From the NCBI GenBank assembly GCA_018058545.1, contig JAGOZU010000025.1:1-33740 (forward strand): DNA of 33,740 bases, written 5' to 3'. Below, in pieces: positions 8,395 to 27,495 of this stretch (the first letter of the stretch is position 1; each line of letters opens with the position of its first letter). The notes beneath the pieces were generated by a model that was not told the origin of the DNA, did no database searches, and was given only the letters and a program-made list of their open reading frames with translations. Both the position numbers and the translations under genes were made by a program. This stretch comes from Promineifilum sp. Lineage in GTDB: Bacteria; Chloroflexota; Anaerolineae; Promineifilales; Promineifilaceae.

Positions 8395-8417
8395 CCATAT
8401 ATCTCGATCTCGTTTGG

Positions 8418-8513
8418 CGGGAGCGGATGGGAGTCGAACCCACCGCCGCCTACTCAGCGTAGCCGGCCACTCATTTTGAAGACGAAGGCATCCACCGGGA
8501 CACAACCGCTCCC
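8418..8513 (-). tRNA. selC: tRNA-Sec (anticodon TCA)
   Basis: The - strand folds into a selenocysteine tRNA. It has an 8-bp acceptor stem (GGGAGCGG with CCGCTCCC), a 6-bp D stem closed by a CGGT tetraloop, an anticodon loop CTTCAAA with anticodon TCA, and a long variable arm of 9 positions per side with one mismatch. The T arm is 5 bp with loop TTCGACT. Acceptor plus T stem is 8+5 bp, the bacterial tRNA-Sec signature. The discriminator is G (position 8418) and an encoded CCA follows at 8417-8415; none of the other tRNAs in the window encodes CCA. SelB, SelA and SelD are not in the window. The TCA anticodon could in principle be a suppressor tRNA, but the extended acceptor and D stems argue strongly for tRNA-Sec. 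Confidence 0.95.
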
Positions 8514-8520
8514 ATCGTTA

Positions 8521-8549
8521 ATTGTGGCCGTAAGGGTGCTGCTTGTCAA
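8521..8549 (-). promoter_or_regulatory. Promoter of the selenocysteine tRNA gene
   Basis: On the - strand a perfect -35 box TTGACA (8549-8544) is followed, after exactly 17 nt, by CACAAT (8526-8521), a 4/6 match to the -10 box. Only 7 nt separate the -10 box from the first base of tRNA-Sec (8513), so the transcript probably starts at or next to the mature 5' end. Confidence 0.7.
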
Positions 8550-19661: not shown

Positions 19662-19744
<83 letters not shown>

Positions 19745-19762
19745 GCAGGATTGATGCTCAAT

Positions 19763-19791
19763 ATTATATCTTTGATGAGGCTTCACCACAA
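19763..19791 (-). promoter_or_regulatory. Promoter of the tRNA-Leu/tilS cluster
   Basis: On the - strand TTGTGG (19791-19786), a 17-nt spacer and a perfect TATAAT (19768-19763) lie just upstream of tRNA-Leu (first base 19744). Spacing and position fit a sigma-70-type promoter. No other promoter is evident between tRNA-Leu and tilS, so tilS may be read from here too. Confidence 0.7.
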
Positions 19792-19858
19792 CCTGCCTCA
19801 TCAGGCGTTAGCGGCTGGTCGTTGCCTGTCTCACCAATGCCCCCTACAATTGATTTCG

Positions 19859-21847
19859 ATGATCCCCCCGCATTCGACATTACCCATCGACATCGACTTT
19901 GATGTCGAGCTTGGCGACGATCTGGCTCGTCTGGAAACCTATAACAAGCACCACTATCGGCCAAATACCTACCTTCACAAATGGTGGGGCAGACGCTGCG
20001 GCACCACCTTTCGCCTCATCCTGAAGGGGCTGGTCGATGATCCGGAGCGTCGGGCTTACTATGAACCGGGAGGGCTGGAGGGCAAGGTCATCCTCGATCC
20101 CATGATGGGTGGCGGCACGACCCTGCATGAGGCGATACGCCTGGGAGCATCGGTCATTGGAGTTGACGTCGATCCGATCCCGGTGTTGCAGGCCCGCGCG
20201 ACGCTGACTGACCGGTCGATTAAGCTCCTGCAATCCGAATTTCGGCGCTTGTACGACGAGCTGGCCCGATCAGTTGGCGATCTGTTCCAGACCCATTGCC
20301 CCGACTGTGACGAACCCGCGCCTCTGTGGTACGCGCTCTATGGGCTGCGGCGGAAATGCACCTGCCGGGAAATGCTGGTTGTGGATTCCCTTGCCTTGCG
20401 TCATGAGCCGGACGGCCGAACCTTGCGCTGGTGCCCCGATTGCGGCGAATTGACCGATGGGCAAGACCATATCTGTCGGGGAGGCGATCTCCATCTGGTC
20501 GAAAAGGGGCAAGGCAGTTGCGAGCGCTGCGGTGAACTGTTCAGCGATCTCACCGATCGGCCGTACTATATGCGCTATGAAATGCTCGCCGTCGCCGGCC
20601 ACTGTGATGCCCACGGCCTGTTCCACAAGTCGCCGGACTGGCGAGACAGGGCAGCTCTGGAGCGGGCCAATGCGCTCAGGTTGTCGCTGCCGTTGAGAGC
20701 GGATGAGTTTTGCATTACCGGCGGAGACAAGTCGATTCAACTGATCCGCCGGAATATCAGGAACTATCTGGATCTGTTCTCCAGCCGCCAATTGCTGTTT
20801 CTGGATGCCGCCCTACGCCATCTACCGGATGATGATCCCGCCATCCGCCTCAACCTTGCATTGCTGGTCTCGACGTCATTGGAGTTCAACTCGATGCTCT
20901 GCGGCTATAAGGGGGTCGATAAGCGACGTGCCGGGGCCGTCCGCCACACCTTTTCCCATCATGGCTATTCGTTCCCGTATACGGCACTGGAGAATAACCC
21001 TATCTATCCCCGCCGTGCATCGGGCACTTTGCAGAAGCTTTTCCAGAGCCGCATCGTACGCGGCCGTCGTTGGGCGGCCGCCCCGCAAGAGCGCGTCGTT
21101 GGTGGAGGGTCAGCCCGGTTTATCCCGATCGAGGGCGAGCGTGACAACGGGATCGAGATGGACAATGCGGCCGACCTGCATGAGGCCGGCAGGAGCTTCT
21201 TCCTGATGCAAGGTTCGTCGATAAGCCTGCCTGTTGAATCGGGCAGTGTCGATGCCGTTGTGACTGACCCGCCATACTATGACAGCATCCAGTATGGCGA
21301 TCTGGCAGCGTTCTTTCGCGTCTGGCTGCGCCAATTTTTGCCGGATGCGGCCGATTGGGATTACGATGAGTCGGCCGCGGCGGTCAATTCCGAACGGGCC
21401 AACGGCAACGATCAGTATTATGAGCTTATGGGAGAGATTTTCGGGGAGTGTCGCCGGGTGTTGAAGCCTGAGGTCGGCCGTCTCATCTTCACCTTTCACC
21501 ACTGGCAGCCGCGGGCCTGGGCGGCACTTTCGGCTGCCTTGAGCAGCGCCGGCTTCACCCTGCTCAATCGCTACGTCGTCCATGCCGAGCATCCGATTTC
21601 GGTCCATATTAACAGAATGCACGCTCTGACCCATGACGCCATCGTCGTTCTTGCTCCTCGCGGCCCAGCCATCGCCTCGCGATGGCCCCGGCCGCGCGCG
21701 ATCGATCGCACCGACAGCCACCGTTTCACGGCAACTTGCGCGGAATTTATGGGCTGGATACTCGATCAGCCGGAGCTATCCAGAGATGATATAGAGCGTT
21801 TGTGGGCAGATTTCCTGCCTGCGAATGGCGGCCATCAACCGCATTAG
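19859..21847 (+). CDS. Adenine-specific DNA methylase with Zn-ribbon domains (COG1743/DUF1156-like)
   Basis: About 662 residues. The SAM-binding motif DPMMGGGTTLHEAI followed by GVDVDP lies near residues 80-105. The catalytic motif DPPYYDSIQYGDL is at about residue 470, an alpha-type order (SAM motif first, catalytic motif last). Between them are Cys pairs spaced like Zn-ribbons: CPDCDEP with CTCREM, then WCPDCGELTDGQDHIC, and CERCGELF (about residues 147-235). The N-terminal HHYRPNTYLHKWWGRR is the lead-in of the DUF1156 methylase group. Relatives are often defence-linked, next to DUF499-type ATPases; here no ATPase, nuclease or restriction subunit is adjacent, so it appears to be an orphan. 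I chose ATG 19859; in-frame codons further left run into tRNA-Leu. Confidence 0.85.
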   Translation: MIPPHSTLPIDIDFDVELGDDLARLETYNKHHYRPNTYLHKWWGRRCGTTFRLILKGLVDDPERRAYYEPGGLEGKVILDPMMGGGTTLHEAIRLGASVIGVDVDPIPVLQARATLTDRSIKLLQSEFRRLYDELARSVGDLFQTHCPDCDEPAPLWYALYGLRRKCTCREMLVVDSLALRHEPDGRTLRWCPDCGELTDGQDHICRGGDLHLVEKGQGSCERCGELFSDLTDRPYYMRYEMLAVAGHCDAHGLFHKSPDWRDRAALERANALRLSLPLRADEFCITGGDKSIQLIRRNIRNYLDLFSSRQLLFLDAALRHLPDDDPAIRLNLALLVSTSLEFNSMLCGYKGVDKRRAGAVRHTFSHHGYSFPYTALENNPIYPRRASGTLQKLFQSRIVRGRRWAAAPQERVVGGGSARFIPIEGERDNGIEMDNAADLHEAGRSFFLMQGSSISLPVESGSVDAVVTDPPYYDSIQYGDLAAFFRVWLRQFLPDAADWDYDESAAAVNSERANGNDQYYELMGEIFGECRRVLKPEVGRLIFTFHHWQPRAWAALSAALSSAGFTLLNRYVVHAEHPISVHINRMHALTHDAIVVLAPRGPAIASRWPRPRAIDRTDSHRFTATCAEFMGWILDQPELSRDDIERLWADFLPANGGHQPH

Positions 21848-23470: not shown

Positions 23471-24607
23471 TCAGGTTTGTTGTCGGGACATAGCGGCGAA
23501 CGTCTTGTCATATCGGCCGGCCAATACGCTCCAGTCAAATCGGGCGACTGCCGCCGCCAAGCCGCTGGTGACGGTGTGTGTGGCAGCCACATCGGACAGC
23601 GCCCACCGCAAGCGATTCAGGAGATCGAGCCGCCCATGATACAGACAGTCGGGGTGGAACTCGGCCGGGATCAGTTCGGGATAGCTAAGACGCGCCGGCA
23701 GCAGCGGAAACGTGTGGCAGTAGATCGCCTCCAGAATGGAGATACCGAAATATTCATGGCCGGCGGTGGAGATGGTGACGGCCGATTCCCACAGCAAGCG
23801 GCTATAGGTGTCGCCGTCGGCGAACCCGTTGTGAATCACGCGATCGCCCAGAGCCTGAACTCCTGCCTCCCAACGTTCGCCCGGTTTGCCGAAGCGCTCG
23901 CCACAAAGGGCTACCCGAAACGGCACACCCTCCTCGGCCAGGGCAACCAGCACATTGATAAACCCCTCGGGATTCTTGTCATATTCCAGGCGCTGATTCC
24001 ACAAAACAAGGGGCGCGGCCGCGGGATCGCCGGACCTGGCGGCCGAATCAAAGCACCGCAAGTCGACCCCCACCGGCAGTACTTCGCTCTTGCGGCGCAA
24101 TAACTCGATGCTGTCCAGTTCGTTATACTCGGGATAGTGACGCAGGAAGGGCGGCAGGGCGGCGAAAAGGGTATCCAGATGGTATTGGGAATTGAAGAAG
24201 ACACGGTCGGCGGCCATCATTGACGCGTAATTGATGAAACTGTAGTGTCGGTCGCGCTCCCCTAACTGACGTCGCATTGGCCCGATGGTTGGATCTTCCG
24301 GCAATGGGTAGGTTAGCTGGTTCTCGTGCATGTAGAGGGCAGCGGGGATGGCGGCCATTGTTTCGCGAGTCAGAGCCAGAAATGTGGTCAAATCGAGCAG
24401 GTCGGTCGCCAGGATGAGGTCGGGCGGCGGGGCGGAATTGGCAAGCCAACGACGGGCCAAAGTCACCGCGCCGCCATGCATGCGCCACTTCCAGAACCGC
24501 GCCGGCAGCGTGAGCAGCGACACCTCGTGGGCGCTGTTCCTTTGATAGCCCTCGGCCCATGCTCGATGGCTGCCGCCATGATACGGAGAGATGAGAATGA
24601 TGCGCAT
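23471..24607 (-). CDS. DUF3524 glycosyltransferase, tRNA-queuosine alpha-mannosyltransferase (QTMAN/GTDC1) family
   Basis: A 378-residue GT-B glycosyltransferase. The N-terminus reads ISPYHGGSHRAWAEGYQRNS, then LLTLPARFWKWRMHGGAVTLARR, which is the signature block of DUF3524. The C-terminal GT4-like half has GHEYFGISILEAIYCHTFPLL, with the donor-binding E-x7-E-like pair. In animals this family (GTDC1/QTMAN) attaches mannose to queuosine in tRNA-Asp; activity of bacterial members is an inference from similarity. I chose ATG 24607, giving MRIILISPYHGG. It sits divergently from iscX-nuo and a few kilobases from tilS and tRNA genes, but in no obvious operon with queuosine genes. Confidence 0.85.
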   Translation of the reverse strand: MRIILISPYHGGSHRAWAEGYQRNSAHEVSLLTLPARFWKWRMHGGAVTLARRWLANSAPPPDLILATDLLDLTTFLALTRETMAAIPAALYMHENQLTYPLPEDPTIGPMRRQLGERDRHYSFINYASMMAADRVFFNSQYHLDTLFAALPPFLRHYPEYNELDSIELLRRKSEVLPVGVDLRCFDSAARSGDPAAAPLVLWNQRLEYDKNPEGFINVLVALAEEGVPFRVALCGERFGKPGERWEAGVQALGDRVIHNGFADGDTYSRLLWESAVTISTAGHEYFGISILEAIYCHTFPLLPARLSYPELIPAEFHPDCLYHGRLDLLNRLRWALSDVAATHTVTSGLAAAVARFDWSVLAGRYDKTFAAMSRQQT

Positions 24608-24664
24608 GATGCAAGAATCAATCCCGCCGATAACCATTGACTTGTGGATTTATGGCGGCGACAA

Positions 24665-25632: not shown

Positions 25633-25674
25633 TCGTAACCCAATGACGGTTGGCCTTAAGTAACCGGAGAAGTG

Positions 25675-27495
25675 ATGAGCGATACAATTCTCGAACCTAC
25701 CGCGGACGCCCAGGACCCGGATATCGTACTGACTCCTGCCCAGGAAGCGACCGCTAAACTCAAGGATCTGCACCCCAATGTCGTCTCCGACGACACGCGC
25801 GAAGGCTATGAAGGCCTGATCGTCTATGGCGACTCCATCACCGAGGTCGCCAGGACCCTGCGCGACGATCTGGGCTTCAATTATTTGTCCAGTGTCACCG
25901 GCGTGGATTTAATCGAAGAGGACAAGATGGAGGTGGTCTACCATCTCTACAGCATCGAACGTGGCGGCGGCCCAGTCGTCCTCAAGGTGCAAGTCAACCG
26001 CGATGAGCCGGTATTGCCCTCGTTGGTTCCTGTCTTTCCGGGAGCCGACTTCCAGGAGCGTGAGGCCTTCGACATGTATGGCTTCAACTTCCTGGGCCAT
26101 CCTGACTTGCGACGCATCCTGACCTGGGATGGCTTTGCGGGTCATCCGATGCGCAAGGACTGGAAAGAGCCTTATTTTGAGGATGAGAACAAGCCCTTTG
26201 GCAGTCGTTGGCCGGACGGCCATGTCATCCGCTCCGAAGAGAACAATCCCTACGGTAAAAACGTGCAGTACCCGCCCGGATGGTTACCCACCGGCGATGA
26301 GTACGATATCGAGACCGACGTCTATCTCGGTCTGTCCTACTCGCGGGACGCCACCCCTGGCCTGAAAACCGACAAGGTAACGATCAACATGGGGCCGCAA
26401 CACCCGTCCACTCACGGTGTGTTCCGCATGGTCGTCACACTCGACGGTGAAACGATCGTCGATCTGAAGCCCGTCATGGGTTATTTGCACCGCAACCATG
26501 AGAAGATTGGCGAGCGCAACACGTTCATCATGAACATGCCCTATACCGACCGGTTGGATTACCTCTCTCCGATGTCGAATAACCTGGGTTACGCCATCGC
26601 CATTGAGAAACTCTTTGATCTGACGGTCCCGGAGCGGGCGGAGTGGATTCGGATATTGATGGTCGAGTTGACGCGAATCAGCAACCATCTATGGGCGTTG
26701 GGCTTCCTGCTCAACGACCTGGGCGCGCTGCAGACGCCGATGCTCTATTATTACCTTGAGCGCGAGCTAATCATGGACGTGTTCGAGGCCTCGGCCGGAT
26801 CACGCATGATGTGTAATTTCATGCGATTTGGCGGCGTTGCCTATGATCTGCCGGATGAAATTCGCGGCACGCCGACCATGAAGTACCTCGAGGAACTGGT
26901 CTACAACCGGCTGCCGAAGGTGATCGATCAGGGCGACGTTCTCATGACCAACAATGAGATCGTTCGCGCACGCGCCATCGGCGTCGGCATTCTGACGCCT
27001 GAGGATGCCATTGCCATGAGCACAGCCGGCCCGCTGCTGCGTGCCAGCGGCGTCCCCTATGATATTCGTCGCGCGGAGCCGTATTCCTATTACGAGCATC
27101 TCGATTTTGATGTGGCTGTCCGTTACAACGGCGATATCTATGATCGCTATCTCATCCGCGTGGACGAGATGCGCCAAAGTATAAGGATTTTGGAGCAGGT
27201 ACTGCCCCGACTTAAGCAAACCCAGGGCGCGCCGGTCTACGGAGAGAAGCCGCAATACGCCGTGCGTGCCCCGAGGGCAGGCGAATCCTACGGCCGCGTC
27301 GAAAACCCCAAGGGCGAGTTGGGCTATTATGTGACCACCAAGCGTCGCAACAGCAATCCGGACCGCTACCACGTCCGCGCCCCATCCTTCATCAATCTGA
27401 CCGCCCTCGGCCCCATGTCGAAGGGCTATAAGGTGGCCGACGTTGTGGCCATCCTGGGCAGCATTGATATCGTTCTCGGCGAGGTCGATCGGTAG
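25675..27495 (+). CDS. nuoCD: NADH-quinone oxidoreductase subunit C/D fusion
   Basis: A 606-residue fused subunit of the complex I peripheral arm. The NuoC part (about 1-165) ends in the family signature EREAFDMYGF followed by GHPDLRRILTWDGF. A linker of about 65 residues follows. The NuoD part (about 235-606) has INMGPQHPSTHGVFRM and GYLHRNHEKIGERNTF, the quinone-pocket region homologous to the NiFe-hydrogenase large subunit. The quinone-contact His pair in QHPSTHG is retained. I chose ATG 25675, with GGAG 5 nt upstream, over the GTG one codon earlier. C/D fusion also occurs in E. coli and some other lineages. Confidence 0.96.
   Translation: MSDTILEPTADAQDPDIVLTPAQEATAKLKDLHPNVVSDDTREGYEGLIVYGDSITEVARTLRDDLGFNYLSSVTGVDLIEEDKMEVVYHLYSIERGGGPVVLKVQVNRDEPVLPSLVPVFPGADFQEREAFDMYGFNFLGHPDLRRILTWDGFAGHPMRKDWKEPYFEDENKPFGSRWPDGHVIRSEENNPYGKNVQYPPGWLPTGDEYDIETDVYLGLSYSRDATPGLKTDKVTINMGPQHPSTHGVFRMVVTLDGETIVDLKPVMGYLHRNHEKIGERNTFIMNMPYTDRLDYLSPMSNNLGYAIAIEKLFDLTVPERAEWIRILMVELTRISNHLWALGFLLNDLGALQTPMLYYYLERELIMDVFEASAGSRMMCNFMRFGGVAYDLPDEIRGTPTMKYLEELVYNRLPKVIDQGDVLMTNNEIVRARAIGVGILTPEDAIAMSTAGPLLRASGVPYDIRRAEPYSYYEHLDFDVAVRYNGDIYDRYLIRVDEMRQSIRILEQVLPRLKQTQGAPVYGEKPQYAVRAPRAGESYGRVENPKGELGYYVTTKRRNSNPDRYHVRAPSFINLTALGPMSKGYKVADVVAILGSIDIVLGEVDR

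Follow-up and report, generated by a model that had tools for sequence, protein, structure and literature searches.

The selenocysteine tRNA gene and its surroundings

The window, the whole stretch of 33,740 nucleotides analysed here, carries on its minus strand at 8415-8513 a gene for selenocysteine tRNA (tRNA-Sec, selC), 99 nt long including the encoded CCA. ARAGORN calls a tRNA-SeC (tca) at exactly these positions, and the Rfam model RF01852 matches at full length from 8419 to 8513 (-) with 62.2 bits, above its gathering score of 47 (E 1.6e-10 for the window). Upon search of the whole genome (3.6 Mb, 98% complete) with the same model, the gene was the sole match above the cut-off and selC is in this sense single copy, with the runner-up at 45.2 bits. 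The predicted minimum-free-energy fold of 8415-8513 (-) is the tRNA-Sec cloverleaf (-44.5 kcal/mol). All on the minus strand, this structure comprises an acceptor stem of 8 bp (5' strand 8506-8513 with G1 as first base, 3' strand 8419-8426), a D stem of 6 bp with a CGGT loop (8488-8503), an anticodon stem of 5 bp presenting the anticodon UCA (8477-8479), a long variable arm (8445-8467) of 4+4 bp around a non-pairing column, a T stem of 5 bp including one G-U pair with its loop (8427-8443) and the discriminator G73 followed by the encoded CCA (8415-8418). Acceptor and T stem together form the 13 base pairs (8/5), not 12, of bacterial tRNA-Sec (PMC5330540), and the combination of a UCA anticodon with G73, which equally characterizes the bacterial molecule, is present. 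The initial annotation had described the same gene with its 8/5 stems, 6-bp D stem, CGGT loop, long arm and TCA anticodon and had proposed a check with a dedicated tRNA-Sec model; the check has been run, and ARAGORN, RF01852 and the fold agree with that description.

The gene is located immediately in front of a Phe-Gly-Cys tRNA cluster, on the strand opposite to it, and in the vicinity of an M3 peptidase gene, and a tRNA-Sec gene occupies the same position, with the cluster and the peptidase, in 10 other named contigs. Contigs L028, L030 and L038, which end too near the cluster, were left out of this comparison. In L032 and L040 the Phe-Gly-Cys cluster and the M3 peptidase gene are present without a tRNA-Sec gene in front, possibly as a consequence of local loss or relocation. 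For the M3 peptidase nearby, the nearest relatives come from Chloroflexota, with Promineifilum sp. BROCD045 as the top match and nearest named relative (81% identity over the peptidase), in which the order of the tRNA genes is the same as in the window, in line with the earlier assignment to a probable Chloroflexota genome.

In the structure alignment of the 11 syntenic genes all 32 of 32 pairs, including acceptor pairs 1-8 and the D and T stems, form in all rows (100% of 352 cells), compared with 43-58% of cells for slid control structures, and the anticodon is invariant. Changes on both sides occur in nine pairs, among them four of the variable arm, a number reached in 0 of 500 shuffles. The purine-purine mismatch within the variable arm (window positions 8463 and 8449, alignment columns 51 and 65) is kept in all 11 genes, as G-G, including in the window, or as A-G in L026.

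It could be argued that the locus is a degenerate tRNA-Sec relic, or that a long-armed tRNA of Ser/Leu type or a UGA suppressor has been miscalled, as ordinary tRNAs with a long arm in the source genome also give RF01852 matches, which stay below the cut-off. Such a reading is extremely improbable, however, as the window gene lies 17 bits above the next match and has the 8/5 fold, all pairs are kept with covariation in the orthologues, and its presence together with selA, selB, selD and UGA-containing genes for SelD and a SelW-like protein (see below) contradicts it. Thus, 8415-8513 (-) is a genuine tRNA-Sec gene, rightly recognized beforehand, and, as a gene, an ordinary one, another example of the known bacterial tRNA-Sec.

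Elsewhere in the window, at 25672-27495 (+), the 30-kDa and 49-kDa subunits of NADH dehydrogenase are fused in one frame of 607 aa (NuoCD type), which adjoins genes for the 20-kDa subunit and a 4Fe-4S protein. The frame at 23471-24637 (-) encodes, in a bacterium, the N-terminal domain of a tRNA-queuosine mannosyltransferase (PF12038, E 1.3e-56). A 725-aa frame at 19670-21847 (+) contains two DNA-methylase (N6_N4_Mtase) stretches; its called start codon, GTG, overlaps with a tRNA-Leu gene on the opposite strand, and the true start is probably located further downstream.

Selenocysteine machinery and selenoproteins

The genome that carries the tRNA-Sec gene also encodes, outside the window, the three proteins of the bacterial selenocysteine pathway, each scoring above the curated cut-off: SelA (C11:2958-4316; 540 bits), SelB with its winged-helix domains (C175:7002-8843; 342 bits) and SelD (C175:1092-2024; 374 bits), the latter with one in-frame TGA. 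By homology to the known bacterial pathway, the tRNA would be charged with serine by SerRS, SelA would turn the seryl form into Sec-tRNA using selenophosphate made by SelD, and SelB would bring the Sec-tRNA to UGA codons with a hairpin behind them, at least in SelD and a SelW-like protein. The gene at 8415-8513 is hence almost certainly the single selC of an uncultured bacterium of the Anaerolineae (Chloroflexota), a near relative of Promineifilum, with a selenocysteine pathway comprising SelA, SelB and SelD.

Selenocysteine decoding is the rule in the class, and the system of the window is ordinary because 246 of the 298 genomes of the class have a selA match above the cut-off. For this estimate of prevalence selA was used in place of RF01852, whose tallies without cut-off (matches in 301 of 301 genomes of the phylum and, among 14 named control genomes, in 13 in one run and in all 14 in another) were discarded because the model also matches ordinary tRNAs. 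A plasmid search with the window tRNA gave no match.

Selenoproteins were sought family by family in targeted stretches of the genome, and the two that were found represent a minimum number. In SelD the in-frame UGA (C175:1122; L106:1122) stands in the context SCAGUASKLAP, with U at the position of the UxxK motif which marks selenocysteine in Sec-SelD (PMC9312934). The hairpin predicted behind this UGA is more stable than those of 198 of 200 shuffled sequences (z -2.8). In a search of 56 genomes of the order, every SelD match above the cut-off that includes the N-terminus has exactly one in-frame TGA, whereby the figure for the order is a count of TGA codons and the codon position is that verified in the genome of the window only. 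With such a selD gene, selenophosphate synthetase needs its own product for its making. The second gene, at C56:24937-25215 (-) (L127:1450-1728), encodes a SelW-like protein with a TTG start, one TGA and the CVPU motif in the context YCVPUNYWPRA. The hairpin modelled behind its UGA is weak (z -1.2), bacterial SECIS elements being beyond proof by folding alone. As selenoproteins of Chloroflexi have already been known (PMC1794560) and both Sec-SelD and SelW-like proteins belong to known bacterial selenoprotein families, these two show no notable difference from described systems. The earlier proposal that some UGA codons are probably read as selenocysteine in this genome is supported by these genes.

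The initial annotation had also suggested looking for formate dehydrogenase among the proteins with an in-frame UGA, which did not hold, as the FdhA-like protein carries Cys (ARLCHA). Selenocysteine-decoding bacteria without FdhA all had Sec-SelD (Zhang et al., PMC1794560), a pattern resembled by the source genome, in which, among the families tested, the FdhA-like protein is found only in the Cys form. In the matched parts of the peroxiredoxin-type and AhpD/CMD families of the source genome there was no in-frame UGA. Within the window, reading through UGA codons after likely genes gave no protein-like extension, a weak negative which agrees with the earlier expectation that selenoproteins, like SelA, SelB and SelD, are encoded elsewhere; one long read-through after 23471-24637 was rejected as antisense to a likely gene. 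Gene calling in this genome must allow for UGA as selenocysteine, as standard annotation would break or mis-start selD and the SelW-like gene, the latter probably missed or shortened by standard gene callers.

A predicted promoter placed for a start at the first nucleotide

Upstream of the tRNA-Sec gene, a -35 box TTGACA with a 6/6 match (8544-8549 (-)) is separated by a 17-nt spacer from a -10 box CACAAT (8521-8526 (-)), which ends 7 nt before G1 and is thus placed for a start at nucleotide 1. L026, L027 and G328, a sister genome (in L225), have both boxes with the same spacing and a diverged spacer sequence, and other syntenic tRNA-Sec genes have TAAACT at the same -10 place. Sigma-70 polymerase initiates about 7 nt past the -10 box, so that the transcript should begin at G1 (8513), a start predicted from the sequence. 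This sigma-70-type promoter probably sets the transcription start at G1, in which case the primary transcript would already possess the mature 5' end and no RNase P cut would be needed there.

To place this arrangement in the context of the phylum, 80 further upstream regions of tRNA-Sec genes were taken from across Chloroflexota, with 117 non-Sec, first-of-cluster tRNA genes from the same genus serving as controls. A promoter was counted when the -10 box had A2 and T6 and ended within 31 nt of nucleotide 1, the -35 box matched in 4 or more positions at 16-18 nt and the total was 8 of 12 or higher, criteria which were chosen after a first look. By this consensus a recognizable promoter precedes 35 of 100 distinct tRNA-Sec genes, leaving 65 without one, versus 84 of the 117 other tRNAs. 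Among those recognized, a distance of 6-8 nt from the end of the -10 box to nucleotide 1 is seen in 27 of 35 tRNA-Sec genes, but in only 2 of 84 other tRNA genes (Fisher 2e-17, a P value that kinship makes too small), with median distances of 7 nt and 13 nt respectively. The spacing is repeated in 22 of 30 recognizable promoters when the 11 loci where the pattern was first noticed are excluded. Within the class Anaerolineae, together with the named syntenic contigs, 15 of 15 recognized tRNA-Sec promoters have it, and outside the class it is shared by members of families f23, f25, f54, f62 and f64; other spacings outside the class are 10-12 nt (f14, f27, f38, f74), 18 nt (f80) and 30 nt (f42, f48).

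The base at the presumptive start was considered with respect to a start 1-3 nt before G1, for example at A8515, from which RNase P would trim a very short leader. Bacterial polymerases can initiate roughly 5 to 9 nt past the -10 box, and the ordinary tRNAs of the genus, with their median distance of about 13 nt, would have short leaders of about 5-6 nt. On the other hand, all 27 tRNA-Sec genes with the 6-8 nt spacing have C or T at -1 and G at +1, as expected if initiation occurs at G1, versus a pyrimidine at -1 in 51 of the 73 remaining tRNA-Sec genes (Fisher 7e-4, again too small owing to kinship). As RNase P too favours a pyrimidine at -1, this base is not decisive, and such an upstream start appears rather unlikely, though a reasonable candidate beside the start at G1.

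The position of the -10 box might also be an accident inherited from a common ancestor and not a product of selection, as the trait clusters in certain families and related sequences are not independent. That this position is held by different -10 sequences (CACAAT, TAAACT, TATCCT, TATGCT, TACAAT, TAGCAT, GATACT) in eight or more families, with diverging flanks, argues against such an accident and makes it improbable. The favoured reading of initiation at G1, extended to the phylum, suggests with moderate confidence that in much of Chloroflexota tRNA-Sec, unlike other tRNAs, would be transcribed without a 5' leader and that the promoter, not an unusual RNase P cut, would set the 8-bp acceptor stem.

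Comparison with known systems

In its 8/5 fold, 6-bp D stem, long variable arm, UCA anticodon and G73 the tRNA-Sec of the window resembles E. coli selC and the family represented by RF01852 (PMC5330540). The difference lies upstream, where E. coli selC has a TATAAT 31 nt before the gene and hence a leader of about 24 nt, whereas for the Chloroflexota gene the start is predicted at G1. In E. coli the eighth acceptor pair is retained through an unusual cut by RNase P (Burkard and Soll 1988, cited in PMC3874170), which the Chloroflexota tRNA-Sec would avoid. Among seven proteobacterial genes, including that of E. coli, retrieved with the E. coli selC query, mostly GC-rich and with three ARAGORN starts that may be one base early, none has a recognizable -10 box 6-8 nt before G1. 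A text search of literature that included few subscription journals brought up no description of a bacterial tRNA-Sec without leader.

Vertebrate tRNA-Sec is transcribed from its first nucleotide without a 5' leader by RNA polymerase III and has a 9/4 fold. The leaderless start predicted here would be shared with it, and polymerase and fold differ; if true, the Chloroflexota gene would constitute a parallel among bacteria to the vertebrate one and would explain, for one lineage, what gives the odd acceptor stem of 8 bp its exact end. Leaderless tRNAs, with 5' ends set by transcription, are also those of Nanoarchaeum equitans, in which RNase P is absent (PMC10941002). While the absence of RNase P is the reason in that organism, in the Chloroflexota genome tRNA-Sec alone is predicted to depart from the other tRNAs, which, if true, would set the biogenesis of tRNA-Sec apart from that of the cell's remaining tRNAs.
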